In this document: in pieces, positions 11,144 through 63,610 of the stretch
Layout: the number at the start of each line of letters is the position of its first letter
Numbering within the stretch: the first letter of the stretch is position 1
Notes under the pieces: model-generated
What the model was told of the DNA's origin: nothing
Database searches by the model: none
Seen by the model: the letters and a program-made list of their open reading frames with translations, nothing else
Position numbers and translations under genes: made by a program
From: Lineolata rhizophorae
Lineage: Eukaryota > Ascomycota > Dothideomycetes > Lineolatales > Lineolataceae
NCBI GenBank assembly: GCA_010093515.1
Contig: MU001690.1
Span: 483,916 to 547,915 of the forward strand
Length of the DNA: 64,000 nucleotides
Reading direction: 5' to 3'

Positions 11144-12477
11144 AGAGGCGGCTTCGGCTAGGTTGCGGATGAATGTCCGGGTGCATGGTAGGACACTGGT
11201 TTGAAGCTATTCACCGGCGGAGATTGCGAGTCCTTCCTGCTATCGTTCAAGAAACTCCTCTCTAGGAACGGAATGACCGGGAAACGGTCTTGGCGTGAGA
11301 AATGTAAATACTGAAGCATCAATAAAATTAAGTCTATTCAACAGTGTCTATAGCACGTGGCTGCGTGAAACGATTCTAGGTTGTTACATGTTTAGATGCA
11401 GCGCAGCAACTGAGAACCAGGTACCTCGGTGTGTCGGCACCGATGAAACACCACAGTCGGTGTTTTGAGCTTGTTTCTCGGCGAAACATCAGGATTATGA
11501 GGGGATGGAAAGGTAGCTAGAACGACTGCCTGGCAGGCTAATTGAATAATGGTGAATTCTTAGTCGCATAAGGCTTTCATCAAAAGGCCATTAGGATCTG
11601 TCGGCAGTCTATAGCGGGCACAGCCACTTTTAGAAAATGAATTCCGTACGCTCGGGCGCGACAAAATATCAGCCCATGGGACCATGGCTTAATATATTTT
11701 TGCGGCCTTTGAATGCCCGGTCCCGCACCTGCACTCCGCACTCCGCGAGGCGGGCTGCCTGTTTGGGCCGGCCGCTTGCCGGCCAGACGTCGACGCACAA
11801 AGGGTTTCAGCGGATCGCAGGGATGCATCGAGGCCGCTAGTGAAGCCACAATTAGAAGGCGATTTGATCTGGACACTGTGTGCCGTAGATCAAATGTCTA
11901 GATGGCGCTCGGTTGCAGTGTACATATCTCGTTGACCTCTGCACTTGTGGCGATTCCTTTTGACTCTCATAATCGCAGCGAAACAGTGAGCATAACCCGA
12001 CTCCAATCAGCGTCAGTGGCAGTGGCCCGAACGACTCCGGGCCCCAGCGCTATTTCTGGCTGGTTCCCGTCAGCCGCAGCGCTCGCGGCGCCCAGCCCTC
12101 GCTTGCTCAGCCCTAGCGTGGCTCCGCCCGCGGCCTTTCCCCCCTTGCGTCCTCTGCCTGCCATCTCCGCTTTGTAATTGCCCCATATTATTTTCTCGTG
12201 CAAATCCCCAATTCACTGCCTTTCCTTTTAGTCCCTGGGTCCACACGTCGTCTTTTATCTACCGGTGTTTTGCTCTTCTGCAGCGCGCAACTTTCCTTGA
12301 CCGGCTGAGCTCTCCGCGTATGAACCGGTCGCATTCGCATCCGTGTCCGAGCTGTCGCATCTTGTCGCCAACCTTCAAATCAGCAACCGTGGCTTCCTCA
12401 TAGCCGCTGGAGCCCTTTACCAGGGCAAATACACTCTCCTTTGGTCTCTCCCTCGTATTCCGACCGGTCCGACGACA
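11144..12477. other. intergenic: 3' UTR and promoter of the copper ATPase gene
   Basis: No gene is supported. An AATAAA signal at about 11322 may end the upstream transcript. The region 12000-12477 is pyrimidine-rich (for example CTTTCCTTTTAGTCCC near 12220) and looks like the 5' leader of the ATPase gene. The ATPase reading frame stays open back to 12343 but without an ATG before 12478. Confidence 0.5.
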
Positions 12478-15400
12478 ATGGCGCGTTCTCCGTACCTGCC
12501 CGTGTCCACGCAGGACGCCGACGACGACGGCACCGGCGGCGCCGGCGGCAAGCGCCGCGGTAAGGGGTCCAGCGGCGCAGCATCGCCGCAACATATGGCG
12601 ACCACAACGCTCAAGGTCGAAGGCATGACATGCGGAGCGTGCACGTCGTCCGTGGAGAGCGCCTTCAAAGACATCGACGGCGTGGGCGACGTCTCGGTCA
12701 GCTTGGTCATGGAGCGCGCCGTCGTGGTGCACGATCCGGAGAAGGTGCCGGCGGAGAAAGTGCGTGAGATGATCGAGGACCGCGGCTTTGACGCCGAGGT
12801 GCTGTCGTCGGACATGCCGGAGGCGGCGACGGCAGCGACGGAAGAGGAGGACGAGGGGCAAACCGAGGAAGAAGACGGTGAGGGAGGGTCGCTGTTTGTG
12901 ACGGAGTTGTCCGTCGGAGGCATGACGTGCGGCGCGTGCACGTCGGCTGTGGAGGGCGCCTTCAAGGGCGTCCCGGGCGTGGTGTCCTTCAGCATATCGC
13001 TGCTCTCGGAAAGGGCGGTGGTGGAACACGATGCCCAACTCCTCGCGCCGAACCGGATCGCCGAGATCATCGAGGACACCGGGTTCGATGCGTCCATTAT
13101 CGACACCAAGCAGGCGCCAAGGAAGATCGCGCCTAAGAAGTCTCGCCGAAAGCCCAGTTCTGCTCCGACGGTAACGACTACGGTGGCAATCGAGGGAATG
13201 ACATGCGGCGCGTGCACCTCGGCCGTCGAATCGGGATTCAAAGATGTGGACGGCGTCGTTCAGTTCAACATCAGCTTGCTTGCGGAACGTGCCGTGATCG
13301 TACACGATCCTGCGAAGCTATCTGCATCTAAGATTGCCGAAATCATCGAAGATAGAGGATTTGATGCCAAGGTCCTACAGTCAATTGAGAGCTCCGCGTC
13401 TGCGGCCGTTTCCACGGCCCACTTCAAGATGTTCGGAATGCCAGATGCGAAGGCTGCTATGGATCTCGAATCATCGCTCAAATCCCTTCCGGGAGTGACT
13501 GCAGCCACTGTCAACTTTGGTACATCCCGCGCCACGATTTCCCACAAGAGAGCCAGTATCGGCCTTCGTGCGCTCGTTGAACACATTGAAGGTGCCGGAT
13601 TCAATGCGCTTGTTGCCGATGCCGAGGATAACAATAGCCAGCTCGAATCTCTTGCGAAAACCAAGGAGATTCAAGAATGGCGAAATGCTTTCCGCACATC
13701 ACTTTGCTTTGCGATACCCGTCTTCCTGACTAGCATGTTTTTCCCTATGTGCTTGCGATTTCTGGACTATGGCAGATTTCAGCTGATACCGGGATTGTAT
13801 CTCGGAGATGTTGTTTGCTTGGCACTTACTATACCGGTCCAATTCGGCATCGGTAAGCGGTTCTATATCTCAGCGTATAAGTCCCTTCGGCATGCTTCAC
13901 CTACCATGGACGTGCTGGTTGTTTTGGGGACCTCGACGGCGTTTTTCTTTAGCTGCGCGGCCATGATTGTCTCCATCATTACGCCTCCGCATTCTCGGCC
14001 TGGCACCGTGTTTGACACCAGCACGATGTTGATCACCTTCATCACTCTTGGAAGATATATTGAAAATCGCGCTAAGGGGCAGACTTCGAAGGCCCTGTCT
14101 CGGTTGATGTCTTTGGCACCGTCTATGGCCACGATCTATGCGGACCCTATTGCTGCTACTAAAGCCGCCGAAGCATGGAACAATCAGGAGGTAAAGGTTT
14201 CTGGTGAATCATCGCTAGATTCCGTCGAGCAGAAGACCATCCCCTCCGAGCTCATTGAAGTGGGCGATGTGGTCATCCTCCGACCTGGAGACAAGATCCC
14301 CGCGGACGGCACAATCATTAGTGGGGAGAGCTACGTGGACGAGAGCATGGTCACTGGCGAGGCTATTCCTATTCTAAAAAAGCATGGTTCACATGTCATG
14401 GCGGGAACCGTCAACTCAGCTGGCAGGCTTGATTTTGCCGTCACCCGCGCGGGCCGCGACACGCAGCTAAGCCAAATCGTGAGGTTGGTACAGTCCGCAC
14501 AGACTAGCCGAGCTCCGATTCAGCGTATGGCCGATGTCGTGGCAGGTTACTTCGTCCCGATCATTATCACGCTTGGTTTGTCGACCTTCGTGGCCTGGAT
14601 GGTGCTCAGCCATGTCCTTGCCGACCCGCCAACGATTTTCATGGACGAGGAGAGTGGAGGCAAGCTCATGGTCTGCGTCAAGCTGTGCATCTCCGTCATT
14701 GTTTTCGCTTGCCCCTGTGCGCTCGGCTTGAGCACGCCCACGGCCATCATGGTCGGGACCGGGGTTGGTGCGGAGAACGGCATTCTTATCAAGGGAGGTG
14801 CCGCACTAGAAAAGGCCACGAAGATATCCCACGTCGTGCTTGACAAGACTGGAACGTTGACCGTCGGTAAAATGAGCGTCTCGGAGACCTCACTCACTAA
14901 GGACTGGACGGAATCTCCTGAGCGTATCCGCTTGTGGTGGACATTGGTGGGTCTAACTGAGATGGGCAGTGAGCATCCGATCGCAAAAGCCATCGTCCTT
15001 GCTGCAAAGGAGCAGCTCGGCGTTGGCCCAGAAGGGTCCTTTGATGGAAGCATCGGCGATTTCGAAGCCACCGTAGGAAAGGGCGTTTCTGCTACGGTAG
15101 AAGCTGCGATGTCTTCAGGACGTGAACGCCACCGCGTTGTCGTCGGAAATTCTTCCTATCTCCGCTCTCAAGGTATCGAAGTCCCCGCGTCTGCGGAAGC
15201 GGACCCCAAGTCTGCCCTCACTACTCCCACCACTCCGACCGCTCCTCGCAGACCTCACTCGGGCAAGGGCCCGTCCGCAGGAACCACGACTATCCATACT
15301 GCCGTTTATCCCAACTATACAGGCACGCTCGCTTTGTCGGATTCTCTCAAGCCCGCTGCGCGTGCCACTGTCCAGGCGCTCGCTCGCCTGCGCATCTCGT

Positions 15401-16128
15401 GCTCCATCGTGACGGGCGACGCGCTTGAGCCCGCCCTGGTGGTCGCCTCGCAGGTTGGCATCCCGCCCGAGAACGTGCACGCGAGCGCCACGCCCGCCGA
15501 CAAGCAGCGCATCATCGAGGAGCTACAAGTGCCGACCGCACAAGGCGGGCCTGGCGAGTTGGTGGCCATGGTCGGGGACGGCATCAACGACTCACCCGCG
15601 CTGGCGACGTCGGCCATCGGCATCGCGCTCGCGAGCGGCACCGACGTGGCCATGGAGGCGGCCTCCATCGTGCTCATGAAGCCCGACGACCTGCTCTCGG
15701 TGCCGGCGTCGCTGCACCTCTCGCAGGCCATCTTCCGCCGCATCAAGCTCAACCTGCTCTGGGCCTGCGTCTACAACGTCGTCGGTCTGCCCTTCGCCAT
15801 GGGCTTCTTCCTCCCCTGGGGACTCAGCCTGCATCCCATGGCCGCCGGCGCCGCCATGGCCTGCTCGAGCGTCAGCGTCGTCGCGAGCAGTTTGGCGCTG
15901 AGGTGGTGGGGTCGGCCGGGCTGGATGCGCGTCGCGGTGCTGGATCCGGCAGCGGGTATAGATGAGGAGGTCGAGTACAATGTCAAGCCGAGTCATAGGC
16001 CAGGACTAGTGCACGAGTGGATCGTGCAGGCGAGAGAGTGGATGCGGGGAGGGAAGAGGAATAGGAGGGGTGAAGATGATAGGGACGGGGTTGGTTATGT
16101 GCCATTGAGGGATATGGGCGATGTGTAA
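12478..16128 (+). CDS. CCC2: copper-transporting P1B-type ATPase (Ccc2 type)
   Basis: A single 3.65-kb exon encodes 1216 residues. Three heavy-metal-associated domains each carry GMTCGACTS, with the first Cys at residues 52, 151 and 243. A fourth HMA-like fold follows (FKMFGMPDAKAAMDLESSL) without the CxxC pair. The P-type core is complete: actuator loop with VTGEAIP (Thr626), the metal-binding transmembrane motif ACPCALGLSTPTA (Cys745-Pro-Cys747), the phosphorylation site DKTGTLT (Asp789), the SEHP motif, and hinge GDGINDSPA (Asp1034). The CPC motif assigns it to Cu(I) pumps. In fungi Ccc2 loads copper into secreted oxidases in the late Golgi. A Pro/Thr-rich insert of about 35 residues lies before HTAVYPNYTGTLAL. 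No intron is needed. It is convergent with the next gene, 383 bp apart. Confidence 0.95.
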   Translation: MARSPYLPVSTQDADDDGTGGAGGKRRGKGSSGAASPQHMATTTLKVEGMTCGACTSSVESAFKDIDGVGDVSVSLVMERAVVVHDPEKVPAEKVREMIEDRGFDAEVLSSDMPEAATAATEEEDEGQTEEEDGEGGSLFVTELSVGGMTCGACTSAVEGAFKGVPGVVSFSISLLSERAVVEHDAQLLAPNRIAEIIEDTGFDASIIDTKQAPRKIAPKKSRRKPSSAPTVTTTVAIEGMTCGACTSAVESGFKDVDGVVQFNISLLAERAVIVHDPAKLSASKIAEIIEDRGFDAKVLQSIESSASAAVSTAHFKMFGMPDAKAAMDLESSLKSLPGVTAATVNFGTSRATISHKRASIGLRALVEHIEGAGFNALVADAEDNNSQLESLAKTKEIQEWRNAFRTSLCFAIPVFLTSMFFPMCLRFLDYGRFQLIPGLYLGDVVCLALTIPVQFGIGKRFYISAYKSLRHASPTMDVLVVLGTSTAFFFSCAAMIVSIITPPHSRPGTVFDTSTMLITFITLGRYIENRAKGQTSKALSRLMSLAPSMATIYADPIAATKAAEAWNNQEVKVSGESSLDSVEQKTIPSELIEVGDVVILRPGDKIPADGTIISGESYVDESMVTGEAIPILKKHGSHVMAGTVNSAGRLDFAVTRAGRDTQLSQIVRLVQSAQTSRAPIQRMADVVAGYFVPIIITLGLSTFVAWMVLSHVLADPPTIFMDEESGGKLMVCVKLCISVIVFACPCALGLSTPTAIMVGTGVGAENGILIKGGAALEKATKISHVVLDKTGTLTVGKMSVSETSLTKDWTESPERIRLWWTLVGLTEMGSEHPIAKAIVLAAKEQLGVGPEGSFDGSIGDFEATVGKGVSATVEAAMSSGRERHRVVVGNSSYLRSQGIEVPASAEADPKSALTTPTTPTAPRRPHSGKGPSAGTTTIHTAVYPNYTGTLALSDSLKPAARATVQALARLRISCSIVTGDALEPALVVASQVGIPPENVHASATPADKQRIIEELQVPTAQGGPGELVAMVGDGINDSPALATSAIGIALASGTDVAMEAASIVLMKPDDLLSVPASLHLSQAIFRRIKLNLLWACVYNVVGLPFAMGFFLPWGLSLHPMAAGAAMACSSVSVVASSLALRWWGRPGWMRVAVLDPAAGIDEEVEYNVKPSHRPGLVHEWIVQAREWMRGGKRNRRGEDDRDGVGYVPLRDMGDV

Positions 16129-51233: not shown

Positions 51234-52910
51234 TTATTCGACCCGACGAGCAGAACGAAGCTTGTCGTACGCCGCGATCTCCTCATCGGTCGGCCTAGCC
51301 TCAACGCCCTCAAACCGAATCGGATCCTGTCCCGGGCAACGCTTCAGGCGGAAACGGTACGACTCCTTGGAGCGATCGACTGACTCGTAATCGACCATGT
51401 CATACAGACCATCGTATCTAAAGCCGCGCCTAGGGCGGTAACGGTTTGCGACCTTGAGGTGGGTAGCGCGAATGACGCGAATAGGTTTGCGCTCGTTGAA
51501 AGGTAGTTGTGCGGTCTCAAGCATGTGCTGTGTCGAATCGGTGGGTCCCTTCCCTTCGGTGGAGTCCGTTCCAGTGTACCAGATGTCATCCCCGTTGTCC
51601 TCGTCTTCGTAGTGGTTCCCGCCAGAGAGAATGATGCTATATACGCCCTTGGAGCGTTCGCCGTAGATGCCACCTTGGGTGGCGCCGTGAAGACCATCGC
51701 GCACCATGCTAAGCTGTGTAGGGTACCAAGACCCATTGACATGTCCATTATTGCCGTAGTGGTAGGCATAGCGGCGGCCCGGATAATCCTTTCGAATCCT
51801 ATCAGTGGCGCGACTATCCTCGATCGTTCCATATTTCTTAGTGGTTGAGCTAGCCACCGAAGTTCTCATGTCGATACCACGTAGGAGGTCGGTATCAAAG
51901 TCTTCCATGGCCCACTTGTGATAAAGCTCTTCCGCATCGGCACGGATATCCCAAGGAACATGGATGCCGGGAGCAGGTGAAATAAGCCGCTTAAGTCCTC
52001 CGTCGTTGTGCAGCATTCGAGCGCCCCTAATCTCTTTTGCGGTCGCTTCGGTGAACTTAAACTTGTGAACAAGCGAACGTACGTGGTTGAAGTCCACTTT
52101 GGGAGCCTTAAGAGCTTCTTGAAGCTGCTTGAAGTAGTTGACTGTCGCTGGCCTAAATTTCAAACCCTGAAACTTCAGTTTGCAATACCACTGGGGAGGG
52201 GACTCTTGCGACTCAGCAGGTCTATTTAGCGGAACGTTCGACGCCTTCGGCGCCGTCGAGCGTCTGAACGAGGGCAACGAGCTGAGCACAGGTGGCTTGG
52301 CCGCTTCAACGTGATTAGAGCGCTGGGCCTTGGCCCTAGAGGCTGAAGCTGTGGTGTCAGCATCGTTACGAGCACGCTTAGATACTCGTTCATCAGAGTC
52401 GGTGAGCTGGCCGTCGGAAGGCGACGACGACATTGCTGTGTTATCATCATTCTCGGCATCCTTGAAGGCATCATCGACCACTTTCTTCCATTTCGCCTTG
52501 TCGCGCCGGTAGTCGCGCTCCAAGGCCGCGAACGTAGAAGAGTCAGCGGAAATGCTGGAGACTCCGGCCGGCAAAGTTTCTGGAATGTTGGGGTATTGGC
52601 GGACGCCGTTATCATCATACGACGCGTTCTCAAACGCGTCATCTATGACTTGCTTCCATTTCGCCTTGCCGAGCTGGTACTCGCGTTCCAATTTCTCGCA
52701 CTCTAAAGCTACGAGCGTACAAGGCTCCGCGGAAGCGCTGGAGGCTTCGGGCGGCAAGGTATCCAGAATCTTGGGGTATGGGCGGTCGCCGTTATCATCG
52801 TGCGGCGCATTGTCGAATGCGTCGTTGATGATCGTTGTCCATTTCGCCTTTTCACGCTGATACTCGTGCTCCATCTCCCATGCGTACTCTTTATCGATCC
52901 TAGGAGGCAT
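51234..52910 (-). CDS. SRA-YDG domain protein with tandem N-terminal repeats
   Basis: A single exon encodes 558 residues. The C-terminal third (about 392-531) is an SRA/YDG domain: HGATQGGIYGERSKGVYSIILSGG, EDEDNGDDIWYTGTDS, the RVIRATH strand and RGFRYDGLYDMVDY with the diagnostic Tyr499-Asp500-Gly501. SRA domains bind 5-methylcytosine or 5-hydroxymethylcytosine DNA by base flipping. Residues 16-158 hold three related units, each with EYQ/DYR..KAKW..(V/I)(I/V)(N/D)DAF followed by an acidic stretch; the first two also share YP.I..TLP. Residues 160-235 are disordered and basic with a possible nuclear signal (RVSKRARND). Residues 240-390 form an unassigned ordered segment before the SRA fold. 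No RING, SET or HNH domain is present. It is intronless, unlike most neighbours. Confidence 0.85.
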   Translation of the reverse strand: MPPRIDKEYAWEMEHEYQREKAKWTTIINDAFDNAPHDDNGDRPYPKILDTLPPEASSASAEPCTLVALECEKLEREYQLGKAKWKQVIDDAFENASYDDNGVRQYPNIPETLPAGVSSISADSSTFAALERDYRRDKAKWKKVVDDAFKDAENDDNTAMSSSPSDGQLTDSDERVSKRARNDADTTASASRAKAQRSNHVEAAKPPVLSSLPSFRRSTAPKASNVPLNRPAESQESPPQWYCKLKFQGLKFRPATVNYFKQLQEALKAPKVDFNHVRSLVHKFKFTEATAKEIRGARMLHNDGGLKRLISPAPGIHVPWDIRADAEELYHKWAMEDFDTDLLRGIDMRTSVASSTTKKYGTIEDSRATDRIRKDYPGRRYAYHYGNNGHVNGSWYPTQLSMVRDGLHGATQGGIYGERSKGVYSIILSGGNHYEDEDNGDDIWYTGTDSTEGKGPTDSTQHMLETAQLPFNERKPIRVIRATHLKVANRYRPRRGFRYDGLYDMVDYESVDRSKESYRFRLKRCPGQDPIRFEGVEARPTDEEIAAYDKLRSARRVE

Positions 52911-55894
52911 CTTGAATGACGAACGTTAGATCCATATGCGTTAGCGTAGGCATTTTGGGCGTGTGTGGTGCATATTCTTACAATTTGGAGCACTTGTGGG
53001 TTTAAGTCGCCGGTGACGAGCAAAGTCTCGCGGTACAGAATGCAAGCAGGTAGCAGTGGTTATGGGTTGGTAGCACTTCAAGTTGAGGGGGCTGAGAAGT
53101 TAGGTGTAGGTGTGTAGCTGTGGCAGGGTTGGTGAGGGTGGAAGAAGTAAACAAGCAAACGCAGAGAGTGCTCGGCAACGTAACGTAGGCCCGCCGAGTC
53201 GTGGTAGGTAGGACCAAGTTTATTGAGGGCCTCATTTGCCGACGGGCGTACTGGCGCACAGCTTCAGTTAAAACGTCAGCGCTATTTGAACATGACCTTT
53301 AAATTATTTCCGCAGTGCCAGTGTCCATGCCTCACTACTATGCATCAAAACATGACAAAAGTGAGTGTGATTACAAGTGGACATACTTGAGCGAGCGGTT
53401 TACAGATTTAAGCATCCCATATGTGCCTCGAAGAGGCTGCTATAACGGAGCAAGGTAAGAGAGGGCTGGTTGACCAAGGCAGAAGTGCAAGTCCATGTGA
53501 CCGGGATGTGCAGAATGTTCAATATGTGGGAGGAATGAAATGGCCACACAAATCGCAAACTGAGTGTCCACGTGCGAATAGTTGAAGTTATCTGCGTTGC
53601 ACGGATTGCTCTACGAAAAGCCAAATTCCGCTGCCTGCCCTACACGTGAAGACATAGGTTGGGGTCTTAGCTTCGGCTCCACGTGCGCAGTCATGTGATT
53701 TGGTGCCCCGATGAGAAAACTTACTCAAAATCCTACACATAGCTAGGCCATGTGCAGGAATAAAAGAGTATAGAACAGTGTAATGGCTTTAAGTGAGAAG
53801 TTAGGTTAGGTTACTAAAATGAACTGTGTCTTCCTTGGTTGTGCTTAGAGTATCTTGTGAAATACTATGTTTAGACAGGGAAAATTTGTTCATTCAACAA
53901 CGGCATATTCTAAATGAATAGGATGGTCATGCCACTAAGTACGCGGATATATGCTTTTATATCCGTCGATCCATCTTGCGAATGTGGATTGTTAAGTTGC
54001 AAGTTCATCATATTAAAAAGGTGTGCGGTCACATGACCTTACATACAACAATCACATTTTCATAATAAAAATTTTCTAGCAAGCAATAAGTGTTGCTAAT
54101 GCTTTTTGAGAGACAACTTAGATGGGCTCGATCATTTTCAAAAGAATAAGTTTATGAACTAGCGTTGCCTCCAGGTCTAGACTTGCCTAAGTAACCTTCT
54201 GTTTGTCTTTAGTGTAGTTGAGCTACGAAATGATACATTGCATTGCACTCTGATACAAGCATATTCGGGCGGGCGGAGTTCCGCATAGGTTGAAGTTTAG
54301 CTCTCCAAACATGACTCTGTGACAGTATACGTCCCTAACCTTTCCAGGGATTCCACCATTTTCCATAGTATCCTCAAGCCTGTAACCACCAAGACCGTAT
54401 CTCTTTGTATCCACGTATATTATTGCCTAGCCGGGTAAGCACAACGACCTTGCTTCCTTGAAAGACCCATCTACCATGGCTTGGCGTCGATCTTTTTGGA
54501 GCATGTCCGACTGAGTAGTTCTTGTTGTGGAGACGCAATCTTCCATTATCGGCAGTAAATGGCCGGCCTGAGGGCATTTGCGTCGCAATTCTCTGTTTTG
54601 CATATCCACTGCCCAAATAAGCTCATGTACAGGCAGTCAAGTTCTCTAGAAGTCATTGGAAACTCTGTCAGACAGCTGCGCTCGGCTGAATTTGCTCATT
54701 TGCATGCCTGGAACTGCGCTATCAACACCAAGCATCAAGGAACCTGTCGCGCTACACCAGAAAGCATCTCTCATGTCAGAATTCGGTAGATCCAAGGATC
54801 GTTCGGCCCGAGAAATGGAATCCGCATACCATAAGAGCGAAGACTAGCCACATGACGAATCTCCGCTCTGTGAAGCAACTGCAATTCTGTTCCTAAATTC
54901 TTCTGCGACAGTTTGCTTGTTAGTATTTAGAAGTTGCTGGATTACTTATTGGGGCTGTCTAGTCTGGTACCCACTAAAGTAAGTCGAGGTAGACTTGAAA
55001 ATATGGAGTTTTTTTTGTCACTAATTAGGTAGTGAAGCTCGTCCTCCAGCAAAGACTGGTACATGATAGACCTCCAACAATCTAGATGACAGACAATCGG
55101 TCTCGGGTATGCTCTTTCGCAGTTTTTCTCGTCCTAATTTCCCGCAACAGTCCGTAATACGTGAGACTCAACGTTCACGGGGCCGGGGTTTTAATATTCG
55201 CATATTTGTTGGTCAATCTGCTCCATACGTACAGCTTGCAGTACGGGGGTAGGTCAGGAGAAGAGGCCTTGGTGTGGAGAAAAATCTGATAACAGCGCCA
55301 AGGGAGCCGCTGCCGAGAGATTTTTGCTCGATACGGCCTAGCGGGTGCACCCGATCGGTTTTCTCGCGATTACGTCTGCCCCCGTCATCGGCCCTGACGG
55401 CGCGAGATGAAAAATCCCCAGCACTCGGCGTGCTCAACCATTGAAAAGTTACCTCTCTAGTTTAAGATTGTCGGTATTGGGCCCCTAGATCCAGAAGCAA
55501 GACGAAAACCTGGGCGCAATGAGTGACTGCTGGTAAGCCGTCGTGACGAGGCAGCGGGGCGATCGGACAATCCAGACCGCGGCCCGCGCCGGGGGCCTAG
55601 GCTCAAGAGCTCTTGGGCACAGCACTGCGATCTGCTGCGCGCTCTACAAAAGCTACTAGGCAGCCGCCCACATCGTGGCTTGCACCGCTCGTTACTTCCT
55701 CACCTTCGCCTCGCCACGGCAGCAACTCCGCCGCCACCCGCTCGCTAGCGCCTCACTCATATGGGCGCCAAAACGCGTCGTCGAGCTTCGTCCACCGTCG
55801 CCCTCCAAGAAGCTCCATCTCCGCGGTGACCCGCCCGCCCTCTCCGTCCGCCCGCTCCCAATCCGCAAACTATCGCGTCGCCGCACCGCCCGCC
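52911..55894. other. 3-kb gene-free stretch, AT-rich in the middle
   Basis: Holds the promoter of the SRA gene on the left. From about 53700 to 55100 it is AT-rich, with T runs (for example near 55010), a small perfect hairpin at 53944-53965 (CGGATATA/TATATCCG) and two copies of TTAGG at 53801. No protein domain, RNA gene or transposon end is seen. From 55500 onward GC rises; the frame of the next gene is open from 55613 without an ATG until 55895, so an upstream exon is possible. Confidence 0.45.
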
Positions 55895-57731: not shown

Positions 57732-58877
57732 AGTAGTGGGTAGGTAGGCGGCGATGGTTACTATGCTGTCGCATTTCTTGGCTTCGACGTGGTCGGGCTT
57801 TCTTGAGGTTCAGTTTGTATCCTCATTTTTTTTATATGTACAGTTTATATGTCTTTGTCCTAATGGACGGGCAGCGAATGTTTGTTTACGAAGTGCATCC
57901 GCAGCGACGGCGTTTTAGGTGCTTTGTCCTGCCTTTTTGGGGAATTTCCTTGGGTCTTGGCAAAAGACCCATGTATTCTTGCGTGTATTGGTTATCTGCG
58001 TATCATAGAGATCTGCACGCGTTGCAGTGGTACCATTTCATTTAAGTCTATACCTTCTCACTATGCCTTAATATACTTCAAAAGCCGTACCCTTTTATCA
58101 GGCCGCGAGCACTTGGGCGGGTCTAGTGTTGTGAACGCATGGAGTTTTGCAATCGTCTGCAGGGTGTGATCGGAGGGTCTTCGGCCTATATCAAAGTAAG
58201 TTGGTCGCCTAGCAATATCTTCCCCTCGTACTGTGGATTCTAATGTGCCATTTGAGACAGAGTCGACCCGATCAATAAGCACTAGAATCTCGAAGAAGTC
58301 CGACGACAGTACGGTGTTGTGTAATCGGCCGACGGCAAAGTTGGGGTGAAAGAGCATATTTTTATCACCTGTCAATTGGTGAAAGGATGCTTTCGGGGAG
58401 GAATTCCACCTGAGTCGGCTTTGTCCGACTGTGCTCTCTTGCGACATAAGTCTAGGTCAAACGATACGATCGATCTCCAAACTCGGGGTCACTGTTTACG
58501 TCGATCATGTCCACAGTTGGTTTCGAGCAGACCCACTAACTTATTAGTTTTCGAAGCTTCTTGCGGGTTATTCGTAATGGACTACATCGCCCCGAATGCC
58601 CTACGAAGCCAAGAGAGAATGTGATTGTGCAAGCGGGAAGGCTCCCCATGGGCCGCATTCCTCACGCTGCGGCTCGACCCCTTTGTTCACCAACCCTCCC
58701 ATTTCCGCAACCGAAATTCTCGCACAGCATCATAAAGCAACAATGGCTCTCACTCAGACAGTATCCACAGCTTGTCGAGAACTGCGTTCCCCAGCCGACA
58801 ACTCTCGACATTGCAATTGATACAGCCAACGACAGCAAAAAGCACCGCAATCGACGAGTAATCGGAGGCAACCCGCC
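57732..58877. other. intergenic, no gene seen
   Basis: Left end is a T-rich 3' UTR of the MFS gene. Frames up to 177 codons (58561-59094) run into the next gene in another phase and are Arg/Pro-rich shadows. The region before 58878 is A/C-rich, fitting a 5' leader. Confidence 0.45.
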
Positions 58878-61109
58878 ATGGACGACGACGAAACACAACC
58901 TTGGTCGGAGGCGCCAGCGACAGACGCCCAGACCGAGGCGGAGCGAGCCGTCTGCCGGAAGCTGCGGATCCACGGTCTCTGGAAGCACCCCGAGGCGCAC
59001 GCGCTGCAAAAGCTGCACAGCACCGACCACTCGTCGCTGTGGCAAGCCTTCGCGTCGGCCTTCAAGCGCGACGCGCGCAGGTGGCGCGAGGTGAAGCGGG
59101 ACCTGCAGCACCTGTGGCTGTGCGCGCAGGACCCGCGCGGGCCCGTCGGGCGGCTGCGGCGCCGCGCGTACCGCGACATCGACGCGTACACGCGGGAGCG
59201 GTCCGACGGCGGCCGCGCGCGCGCGAGCCTGACGGACCAGGTGTGGCGCGAGCGGGCGTACGGCTCCCTGGCGGCCTGCGCCCTGCTGGCCGACGCCTAC
59301 GACGTCTTCGTCGTCGTGCACGTCGCGGCCGGCAACGCCGACGGCAAGACGGCGGCCTGGGACCTGCGCACGCGCGGCGCCGCCGCCGCCGCCCGCCACA
59401 CGGTGCACCTGGCGTACTACCCGCGGGGCGGGCTCCTGCCGGGCTCCGGGTGCTGGACGGCGCTGACGCTGCTGGGCGGGCCCGAGGACGCCGCGGCCGC
59501 GCCGCGGCCGCCGTCGGCGTGGGACGCGGGCGGGAGCGCGCGGGCGCTGCCGCTAGGGACGCTGCGCCTGGAGCCGCTGCCGCGGTTTGCGCGGCCGCTC
59601 GGCGACCGCAGCGCCAACTACATCTACCGGGACGTGGAGCTGGGCTTCAACGCGCACGGCGTGGCCAGCCTGGCCGAGTTCGACCGGCGCCAGCGGCTGG
59701 AGAAGGACCTGCTGGCGCGGCGCGAGCTGACGTCGCTGCTGCCCGTGGACCCGGGCACCGACCCGGTCGTCTTGCAGGAGGCGCCCGAGGGCCCGTCGCA
59801 CGGCCAGGACGCCCACCGGCTGTTCCGCGCCTTCGCCATCGCGCACTTCGGCAACGAGCGCCGCTTCGCCGAGGCGCGCGCCGCCGCCGCCGCCCTGCTC
59901 GACCATGCCCTCGCCATGGACGAGCGCCACTTCGGCGTCGCCGCCAAGCGCAAGCGCGTCTACCTGGCGCTGCACAACGCCAACGCCGGGTCCGCGGCCC
60001 CGGCCCCGGCGCCCGGCGCGGCCCCGCTGGCCGCCCAGATCACGGAGCCCGAGGCCCACGGCTCCCTCGACGCCGTCCAGGTGCTGGCCGACGCGTACGG
60101 CGTCGAGATCGTCGTCTTCTCGCCGCGCCTGGTGGCCGGCCCGCCGGCGCCGGCGCCGACGCCAGCGACACCGTCGCCGCAGCCTAGGGCCTCCAGCGCG
60201 CCCGCCGCCATTGCCCGCCGCAGCCGCCAGCCGGACGTGGAGCTCACGTGGGACGTGTACGTGCGCGGCGAGCTCGACCCGGAGGACCCGGCCCTGCACC
60301 GGCCTTGCGTCTACCTGGCCTGGTACCGTCACGCCGGCGGCGGCTTCTGGACCGCGCTCGACATGTACTGGCCGGCAGCGGCCGGCGACGGCAGCCGCGG
60401 GGGCGCGGGCGCGGGTGCGCTTACCACCACCGCGCCCTCGACCCAGCTCCCTCCTGTCGCGCCCCGGGGTCCGACGCCAGCGGCGGTGGCCCCTCGCCGC
60501 CCGGCCCCCGGCGACAGGTACGAAATGACGTCGCACCAGTCGGCGTCGGCGTTCGGCGTGCGCAGTCCCATCGTCGGGCTGGGCATGCCGGCGCCGTTAG
60601 CGCGGCGGCGCGCCGCCGACGACGAGCAGGACAAGCTGCCGAACTGGGTGGTGGAGGTGCGGCCGGAGAGTGGTCCGGGGAGCAGGGGTGCTCAAGGGGC
60701 CGGTTGGGGAGGCGGGAGTGACGAGGCGGAGCTGGAGAGGAAGAGGAGGGCAAGGAAATTGGCGGTCAGGAGGAGGGAGAGAGAGCAGGCGGAAAGGAGG
60801 AGGGCGGCGGGGGCGGGGCGGTGGAGTTTGTCTAACTGGTGGCCGTTTAGATGGTCAACGAGTAGGACGCCGTCGGCTGCGAATCGTAAGTCGGCGATGC
60901 TCCTCCCTGTGGTGCTGGGAGATCCGAGCTGCGGCACTGACGTTGCTTTTACTTGTGTAGGAGTCCGCTTTGACATGCCGCCGGGTGAGCGGGGCGACAA
61001 CGACCCTGTTTCGGAGCCACCGCTTCGTGAACGGCCGTTCTTGCCTACGCTGCCGGATACGGCGCGTAGTGTGCGCGCGAGGAGGGATGCCGTACAGGCT
61101 ACGCGTTAG
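58878..61109 (+). CDS. protein with two OTU-like domains lacking catalytic residues (predicted)
   Basis: Two exons (58878-60885, 60961-61109; 75-bp in-frame intron) encode 718 residues. Two halves share the same layout. Half 1: DHSSLWQAFASAF (from Asp50), RAYGSLAACALLADAYDVFVVV (127-148) and HLAYYPRGG...GCWTAL (177-195). Half 2: DAHRLFRAFAIAHF (from Asp311), AHGSLDAVQVLADAYGVEIVV (393-413) and YLAWYRHAGGGFWTAL (479-494). This follows the OTU deubiquitinase pattern 'DGNCLFRA ... WG...EL.ALA..Y...I.V ... HY..L', but the catalytic Cys position reads Ser53 and Arg314, and the terminal His position reads Cys192/Phe490 before Trp. The rest is Ala/Pro-rich linker and a basic Arg/Glu helix near 635-665. 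Codon third positions are almost all G or C, unlike the neighbours. The family call is inference from pattern; structure prediction would settle it. Confidence 0.6.
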   Translation: MDDDETQPWSEAPATDAQTEAERAVCRKLRIHGLWKHPEAHALQKLHSTDHSSLWQAFASAFKRDARRWREVKRDLQHLWLCAQDPRGPVGRLRRRAYRDIDAYTRERSDGGRARASLTDQVWRERAYGSLAACALLADAYDVFVVVHVAAGNADGKTAAWDLRTRGAAAAARHTVHLAYYPRGGLLPGSGCWTALTLLGGPEDAAAAPRPPSAWDAGGSARALPLGTLRLEPLPRFARPLGDRSANYIYRDVELGFNAHGVASLAEFDRRQRLEKDLLARRELTSLLPVDPGTDPVVLQEAPEGPSHGQDAHRLFRAFAIAHFGNERRFAEARAAAAALLDHALAMDERHFGVAAKRKRVYLALHNANAGSAAPAPAPGAAPLAAQITEPEAHGSLDAVQVLADAYGVEIVVFSPRLVAGPPAPAPTPATPSPQPRASSAPAAIARRSRQPDVELTWDVYVRGELDPEDPALHRPCVYLAWYRHAGGGFWTALDMYWPAAAGDGSRGGAGAGALTTTAPSTQLPPVAPRGPTPAAVAPRRPAPGDRYEMTSHQSASAFGVRSPIVGLGMPAPLARRRAADDEQDKLPNWVVEVRPESGPGSRGAQGAGWGGGSDEAELERKRRARKLAVRRREREQAERRRAAGAGRWSLSNWWPFRWSTSRTPSAANRKSAMLLPVVLGDPSCGTDVAFTCVGVRFDMPPGERGDNDPVSEPPLRERPFLPTLPDTARSVRARRDAVQATR

Positions 61110-61938: not shown

Positions 61939-63610
61939 TTAAAAGTAAACCACCATCGCATCCCTCGGATGACTCTCGCTCGGACAATACGGACATTTAA
62001 ACCTAGCTCCCTTCGAAATGCGCTGCAGGCTCTCCTTGCAAATGACGTGTCCGCACGGCATCATCATGGGCGGATTGCGATCGGTGCTCTGCTCCTTGCT
62101 AACCGGGCACACGAAGATGCTGTGGAAGTGGAAATCCGGCGGCAACGGTACCTCGATGGGCAGCTCGTCCCTCGAAGTCCACTCGGTCCGCTTCTCGCGC
62201 ATCACGACGCGCACCTTGAGCAGCATCGGCAGCGCTATGCCGCCCGCCGTGGCCGAGATGTACAGCGGGCTCTGCGCGCTTAGGCCTAGCAGCGAGCAGA
62301 ACTCGCGCGTGAAGTGCGCGGCTGCGTCGCGCCAGGCCGCCGGGACGCCGCCGTGTGCGTGCAGCGCGGCGCCGGCGCCAGACTCGTTGCCGCCGTCGGG
62401 CGCTGCCGTCGCGAACAACATCCCGTACGGCGACTCGGAGATGTTGGGGTGGTATGCAAAGGCGCCCATCAGGCGCTGGATGTCGCGCTTGTATTTTGAG
62501 GCGAAGGAGCCGAAGGTGGCGCGGGCGTACTGGTAAGCGCGGATGGGGCCGGACGAGACGCTGGGAGACTGCTGTTTGGAAAGCCTATCATAGTAGGAGG
62601 GATTTCCAGAAGACGAGTCGAGGGCGTCTATCATGGGAGTATCGCCGTCGTTGTCATCTCCGCCGCCCATGAAGTACGTTATGAATTGCAGTCGGCACAG
62701 TTCGAAGAGCAGATTGCTGCCCCGCGCATGCAGGTCATCGGCATGTTCCCGTGCCCAGTCTACAGCCGGCTGCAGGTTGCCCACTCGCATCATGTCTAGG
62801 ATGTGGTACATGTCGGCGAAGCGGCGCTGCAGGGTTGCCGTCTCCAAGGAGCGGCCGCCACCGCCGCTGCAACCGGCACCATCATTGGCGAAGTCACGCT
62901 GCCAAGCCAAATCGGATGCGCGGTCCCGTATTTCCACCCAGTACTCTATGGTGGCCAGGATGTCCTGCTTCATGCGTGGCGGCGGTGTCGAGCCCGTCTC
63001 GTCGAGGTAGTTCCAGCGCCCGAAGCGTGGCTCGGGCACCTTGTGCGGCGGGCGTGCGTTCACTTCGGCGATGAAGGTCTCGGCGGCGGAGAAGCGGCCC
63101 TCGCGCAGGAGGTGCATGACGATGGCGCGGTTGATGTAACCAGGAAATGGTGCGATGAAGTCGCTTTCGCTGTCGGGAATGGGCTTGCCGCGGAAGTGCT
63201 GTTCATTTGAACGTGTCCATGAGCATCTTTGAAAACCACATGCCGCCCTGCAGGGGGCATATAGGTGGGTTAAAGCGAATGGGCACGATCCCACCTTATC
63301 CAGAGTTTTGGTAAATGATTTGCTCGCCGAATCGACAGGCTTGAAGTCGTCGTTTATCTTGGTGAAGCTCTTGTTGAGGTTGTTCTGCAACTTGGCGAGT
63401 GCAATCGATCTCTGGACGGGACCTGGGCGTGCCGCCGGATATTAGTACAACGCGACAGCCTCTAACCTAGGGCCTACGGAGCTTCTTACGGGTCTCGAGC
63501 TGCTGCTTGCAGTCTTCTGCAGATGCGATCATCTTGTCAATCTCAGACAAGACTTTGGTGTACACAGCGCGGCCCTCGAGCTTCGTGCAATCCTGCGAGA
63601 CGGACTCCAT
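61939..63610 (-). CDS. RMD5: GID/CTLH E3 ubiquitin ligase subunit Rmd5 (Gid2)
   Basis: Three exons (63490-63610, 63295-63422, 61939-63198; introns 67 and 96 bp) encode 502 residues. The opening MESVSQDCTKLEGRAVYTK and a helical region with RSIALAKLQNNLNKSFTKI precede INRAIVMHLLREGRFSAAETFI, the LisH-like segment. CTLH/CRA follow: RRFADMYHILDMMRVGNLQPAVDWA, LLFELCRLQFITYF, then AYQYARATFGSFASKYKRDIQRLMGAF. The C-terminal RING is degenerate, as known for Gid2: Cys447, then PCGHVIC (Cys465, His467, Cys470) and CPYC (Cys485, Cys488). With Gid9/Fyv10, Rmd5 forms the catalytic core that marks gluconeogenic enzymes for decay. The 96-bp intron is divisible by three and stop-free, so retention would add 32 residues after KSFTKTLDK. 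The exon choice there is supported by the family pattern 'KTLDK...INRAI'. Confidence 0.93.

Follow-up and report, generated by a model that had tools for sequence, protein, structure and literature searches.

A probable tandem OTU-fold protein without catalytic cysteines encoded in the genome of Lineolata rhizophorae

The bacterial effector LotA carries two OTU domains in one chain, Drosophila Otu and CG3251 contain one OTU domain each, and FAM105A/OTULINL is a single-domain protein. Proteins with two OTU domains have been described in papers that, judging by their titles, concern mostly bacteria. Pseudo-OTUs as such are already known and were described in animals. In Drosophila Otu and CG3251, serine stands in place of the catalytic cysteine, and ubiquitin chains were not cleaved by either protein; CG3251 also showed no significant binding of ubiquitin chains (PMC4654579). 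Human OTULINL is presented as an inactive paralogue of OTULIN (PMC10318531).

The window analyzed here is a stretch of 64,000 nucleotides from the genome of the fungus L. rhizophorae. One of its ORFs (Table 1) encodes a protein that probably consists of two diverged OTU-fold domains of old duplicate origin, is catalytically dead and serves as a non-catalytic binder or scaffold.

Table 1. Features of the tandem OTU-like gene and its neighbor (positions in the window)
Feature	Position	Strand	Remarks
Tandem OTU-like protein ORF	58878..61109	+	743 aa unspliced
N-terminal OTU-like domain	59004..59492	+	residues about 43-205
DHSSLWQAF (50-58)	59025..59051	+	matches D-G-x-C-L-F/Y-x-A Cys-loop helix
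AYGSLAACALLADAYDVFVVV (127-147)	59256..59318	+	matches W-G-x-x-x-E-L-x-A-L-A helix and next strand
GCWTAL (191-196)	59448..59465	+	candidate H-Y/W closing motif; weak
C-terminal OTU-like domain, with low-complexity insertion	59733..60377	+	residues about 286-500
DAHRLFRAF (311-319)	59808..59834	+	Cys-loop helix, C-half
AHGSLDAVQVLADAYGVEIVV (393-413)	60054..60116	+	matches W-G helix and next strand
Pro/Ala/Ser-rich insertion in C-terminal domain	60141..60233	+	residues 422-452, 31 residues
GFWTAL (489-494)	60342..60359	+	candidate closing motif, C-half
C-terminal tail, no recognised family	60378..61106	+	Ala/Pro/Gly-rich, basic charged and Trp-rich parts
Likely intron, 75 nt, frame-neutral	60886-60960	+	GTAAGT ... 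CTGAC ... TGTAG
Neighbor, convergent, CTLH + RING protein	61942..63441	-	

According to the alignment, the Pro/Ala/Ser-rich insertion of residues 422-452 is absent from the N-terminal OTU-like domain. Within the tail, at positions 60729-60854, a basic charged stretch begins at residue 618 and is followed by the Trp-rich sequence WSLSNWWPFRW (residues 649-659); these two elements might represent a candidate nuclear or membrane signal.

Alignment of residues 1-255 (N-half) with residues 256-520 (C-half) gave a score of 103 (BLOSUM62, gap penalties 11/1). The shuffled C-half yielded a mean score of 40 and a maximum of 76, with 0 of 2000 shuffles reaching 103, and when both halves were shuffled, the maximum was 72 in 3000 (Gumbel P ~ 1.4e-6), so the alignment of the halves with each other proposed in an earlier note on this DNA was borne out. 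Aligned with the N-half, the best-scoring of 37 further ORF pieces from the window reached 57, and with the C-half, the best reached 66. Since the score of 103 exceeded all shuffles and all other window ORF pieces, the internal repeat is real. In the composition-corrected BLASTP self-comparison of the protein, the full self-match was listed alone, without the internal repeat, which thus lies below BLAST sensitivity. The paired motifs are DHSSLWQAF and DAHRLFRAF (from residues 50 and 311), AYGSLAA and AHGSLDA (from 127 and 393), and GCWTAL and GFWTAL (from 191 and 489); the three motif pairs quoted in the earlier note were all found in the 743-aa translation. The amino acid identity of the two halves was 36 percent (MAFFT alignment). 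Of the 51 aligned four-fold sites where both halves have the same amino acid, 29 (57 percent) also agreed in the third base; composition alone predicts 46 percent, and the duplication thus appears to be old. A recent duplication of the halves was rejected on the basis of these same values of third-base agreement (29/51) and amino acid identity.

The relationship of the two halves to OTU domains was evaluated using profiles. In the genome of L. rhizophorae itself, three matches to PF02338 were found above the cut-off, all of them detected by Pfam, and these genes (L001, L002 and L003) were read as Otu2-like, OTUD3/5-like and Otu1-like, respectively; the otubain family PF10275 was also matched three times, in a group on one contig. 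A profile built from the two halves aligned with the three PF02338 domains with an hhalign score of 35.6 (probability 64, E = 6.4e-5), in a register that paired DHSSLW with DGHCLY and matched YGSLAACALLADAYDVFVVV to the W-G helix and strand. Column shuffles of the two-half profile gave a maximum of 16.7 (0 of 150 reached 35.6), and 57 other pieces of the window, entered as single sequences, gave a maximum of 23.5, while the genuine OTUs scored 36.6, 55.8 and 62.7 in leave-one-out comparisons. When the alignment was extended to eight OTUs (the three from the same genome together with five PDB fragments, among them one printed as 7pl7 whose Cys column shows Ser), the two-half profile scored 32.1 (shuffle maximum 18.4), the C-half alone 26.3 (20.4) and the N-half alone 22.2 (21.4), with none of the 150 shuffles at or above the score in each case. 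The N-half alone against the three OTUs of the same genome was within chance, as 14 of 150 shuffles reached its score, and the hhalign probability was moderate across the comparisons (48-64).

When the single halves were searched, with filters switched off, using an HMM built from the eight OTUs, the C-half obtained 10.6 bits and the C-half without the insertion 12.3 bits, scores that no shuffle reached; the N-half obtained 3.7 bits, a score that one shuffle equalled or exceeded (1000 shuffles each, a score being reported in 325, 524 and 400 of them for the C-half, the C-half without the insertion and the N-half, respectively). In each half, two segments were matched in the same order and at overlapping model positions, and taken singly these segments were weak (0.6 and 0.5 bits in the N-half, 0.8 and 7.4 bits in the C-half). 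The comparisons point to a distant profile similarity to OTU domains that lies above the controls and follows the right order, and the OTU homology of both halves, which is distant only, is supported but not proven. The duplicated OTU fold suggested in the earlier note therefore stands as far as distant profile homology is concerned (35.6 versus 16.7 in shuffles) and lacks a Pfam match.

In the profile register, the position of the catalytic Cys is occupied by Ser53 (N-half) and Arg314 (C-half), as had been proposed and is now supported by profile comparison with controls, and the motif Asp is kept in both (Asp50 and Asp311). The cysteines of the protein are located at residues 26, 82, 134, 192, 477, 685 and 693; since none of them is near 53 or 314, a small shift of the register gives no Cys at the start of the helix. 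Consequently, neither half has the catalytic Cys that opens the first helix of OTU proteases. The candidate closing motif is Cys192-Trp193 in the N-half and Phe490-Trp491 in the C-half, so that the catalytic His was probably replaced by Cys192 and Phe490, which is less secure: the register of this motif is based on the internal repeat and the preceding strand, and the closing strand lies beyond the end of the hhalign alignments. Compared with the corresponding strand of the Otu2-like protein of the same genome, the score of the closing strand was reached by 20 of 5000 shuffles for the C-half and by 530 of 5000 for the N-half, the latter being a weak result, and His485 of the C-half is situated five residues before Phe490. 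The replacement of His by Cys and Phe that had been read from the sequence earlier is thus plausible, although less well supported than the loss of the two cysteines. If the closing register is right, the aromatic residue after the His position is kept as Trp in both halves. Replacement of the catalytic Cys, and probably of the His too, means that ordinary OTU protease function is ruled out for both halves.

The following mechanism is proposed. An old internal duplication would have yielded two diverged OTU-fold domains in a single chain; without the catalytic Cys, and probably without the catalytic His, both domains would be incapable of cleaving ubiquitin by the OTU mechanism. The two OTU-shaped pocket domains lying side by side are predicted to act as a non-catalytic binder or scaffold, with Trp presumably retained in both halves where active OTUs have the residue after the catalytic His, and with a long tail containing a basic stretch placed after the two pocket domains. 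The leading candidate ligand would be ubiquitin or a ubiquitin-like protein. A binder or scaffold is favored because the catalytic Cys is missing and because Drosophila Otu, CG3251 and OTULINL are inactive.

A narrower form of this proposal, in which the tandem pseudo-OTU is a reader of ubiquitin or of its chains and the pockets bind successive ubiquitins, can be put forward only tentatively and is doubted here. It is consistent with the presence of two domains in a single chain and with an adjoining RING-CTLH gene, although this neighbor may be a coincidence. The Trp that both halves retain next to the His position also fits, given that the aromatic residue following His is described as the gatekeeper of ubiquitin Gly75, which it contacts, in most deubiquitinase families (PMC7391069); however, CG3251 was without significant chain binding (PMC4654579), which argues against a reader.

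The neighboring gene at 61942..63441 is a possible partner of the tandem OTU-like protein, and its CTLH-RING product is taken here to be Rmd5/Gid2-like. A more far-reaching suggestion, namely, that the protein represents an undescribed fungal family of tandem dead OTUs that read or shield ubiquitin chains and are possibly tied to the adjacent GID/CTLH-type ligase subunit, is regarded as unlikely. Elsewhere in the window, an ORF with a SAD/SRA domain (51237-52925, minus strand; Pfam E = 2.4e-26) presumably encodes a methylated-DNA reader, and a long ORF at 12301-16125, which we assume to be copper-pump-like, combines a P-type ATPase with four heavy-metal-associated stretches.

It is quite improbable that the halves are a duplicate of another alpha/beta fold whose likeness to OTU motifs is merely local. 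Such a fold would agree with the absence of Pfam matches, with the low confidence of both predicted structures and with the lack of OTUs among the best 50 matches of the C-half model; against it stand the two collinear motif matches per half, obtained with controls, and the first rank of OTUs for the N-half model built without OTU rows. For this model, the AlphaFold input consisted of the N-half with the C-half as a second row and contained no OTU sequences. In the resulting model (mean pLDDT 42.3, pTM 0.41), the Cys-loop helix opens a series of five helices, after which come four strands; two extra helices lie upstream of the Cys-loop helix and a short helix after the strands. In the Foldseek comparison with the PDB, ranks 1-29 were of the OTU class (one was named only Deubiquitinase), as were 39 among the best 50 of 58 matches; the best E-value was 0.13, and TM was at most 0.31 by query and at most 0.39 by target, so that none of these OTU matches was significant. 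This ranking is not fully independent of the sequence, since Foldseek also uses amino acids. Among viral predictions, the best match was unnamed (E = 4.8e-3), and 6 among the best 50 of 89 were named OTU, with many unnamed. In the C-half model (mean pLDDT 39.6, pTM 0.29), the order is similar: five helices counted from the Cys-loop helix precede four strands, between which a short helix is inserted, and no OTU was found among the best 50 of its 72 Foldseek matches. The models can therefore be regarded as suggestive of an OTU fold for the N-half and as negative for the C-half. A confident model without an OTU core, which the earlier note had held to speak against its proposal, was not obtained with either half (pLDDT 42.3 and 39.6), and a better profile match to another family, named there with the same meaning, did not appear in Pfam.

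Searches of family libraries gave the following results. Pfam yielded zero matches at E-values up to 10 for the whole protein, the halves and five fragments, the protein remaining below the curated cut-off of PF02338 with no profile match, and nothing was matched in NCBIfam. In the PDB searched by sequence with the single protein, the best E-value was 1.9, with nothing credible, and the best match for the two-half profile, D-serine dehydratase (E = 0.011), was taken as chance. Only weak matches to families of unknown function were found in PHROGs (best E = 0.022). When contigs were scanned with the protein, which reaches close relatives only, no pattern match was found in viral contigs and none of 29 pattern matches was confirmed in prokaryote contigs; of the 23 pattern matches obtained in viral contigs with the OTU alignment, 0 were confirmed. 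No relative was detected in the phage collection by tblastn with the protein, and a tblastn-type search of the fungus's own genome revealed neither a further copy of the whole protein nor one of a single half.

A further alternative, an OTU fold with changed chemistry whose N-half would use Ser53 or Cys192 in an active site of altered arrangement, is considered very improbable. It would be in keeping with the N-half residues at the nucleophile position (Ser) and the His position (Cys), but the His is missing at its expected place, the C-half has a single Cys (477), and ubiquitin chains were left uncut by Drosophila Otu and CG3251, in which Ser replaces Cys (PMC4654579).

The gene model underlying the tandem pseudo-OTU reading is an open frame at 58821-61109 on the plus strand, with the first ATG at 58878, a stop codon ending at 61109 and 743 codons. 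The GC contents at the three codon positions (GC1/GC2/GC3) were 0.76/0.57/0.95 for residues 1-255 and 0.79/0.57/0.96 for residues 256-520, a pattern that fits the frame; base composition alone would leave 743 consecutive codons open with P ~ 1.4e-5. With a codon model trained on six other genes (3636 codons), the whole-codon score of the frame was the best of six (-0.058 per codon; runner-up -0.163), whereas its synonymous-choice score was the lowest of six (-0.073; other frames -0.042 to 0.015). The coding evidence is thus mixed but favorable. The signals GTAAGT, CTGAC and TGTAG conform to the consensus for splicing that was used for calling the intron, and the 3' part of the gene probably holds the intron 60886-60960, which the earlier note does not mention; as it is frame-neutral, the spliced protein would be 718 aa. 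The GC content is 0.77-0.79 over most of the core of the gene, so that open frames arise easily there. That 58878..61109 is a chance open frame in a GC-rich stretch and no gene is nevertheless hardly credible: the GC of up to 0.79, the other frames open here for up to 441 codons and the lowest synonymous score speak for it, and the GC pattern by codon position, the intron signals, the improbability of the open run, the highest whole-codon score and the internal repeat in the encoded protein speak against it.

If the proposed reading is true, the OTU pocket was reused as a binding module in a fungus, in a protein missed by the profile libraries searched. No title on a fungal tandem pseudo-OTU was found in openly licensed papers, which is no proof of absence, and the protein may belong to a well-populated, unnamed fungal family; should a laboratory fungus carry such a tandem pseudo-OTU, it would provide a haploid system for asking what pseudo-deubiquitinases do.

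Compared with the canonical OTU deubiquitinases (PF02338, including the three genes of the same genome), the tandem OTU-like protein shows its Cys-loop helix, W-G helix and strand in an identical order, and the motif Asp and hydrophobic residues are common to both; however, canonical OTUs have a single domain, possess the catalytic Cys and are detected by Pfam, whereas the tandem protein has two domains, lacks this Cys and is undetected. It resembles Drosophila Otu and CG3251, relatives of OTUD4, in the change of Cys to Ser and in the absence of deubiquitinase activity, which is predicted for the tandem protein, but these proteins are recognizable as OTUD4 relatives, unlike the tandem protein with no family match, and CG3251 keeps the His that was probably lost here (PMC4654579). 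FAM105A/OTULINL is a eukaryotic OTU paralogue whose inactivity matches that predicted for the tandem protein, and it differs in belonging to the OTULIN class and in its location at the endoplasmic reticulum and nuclear envelope (PMC10318531). LotA, which shares with the proposed reading the presence of two OTU domains in a single chain and for which the title of the paper states a dual catalytic activity, is bacterial, whereas the tandem protein is fungal and has no catalytic Cys.
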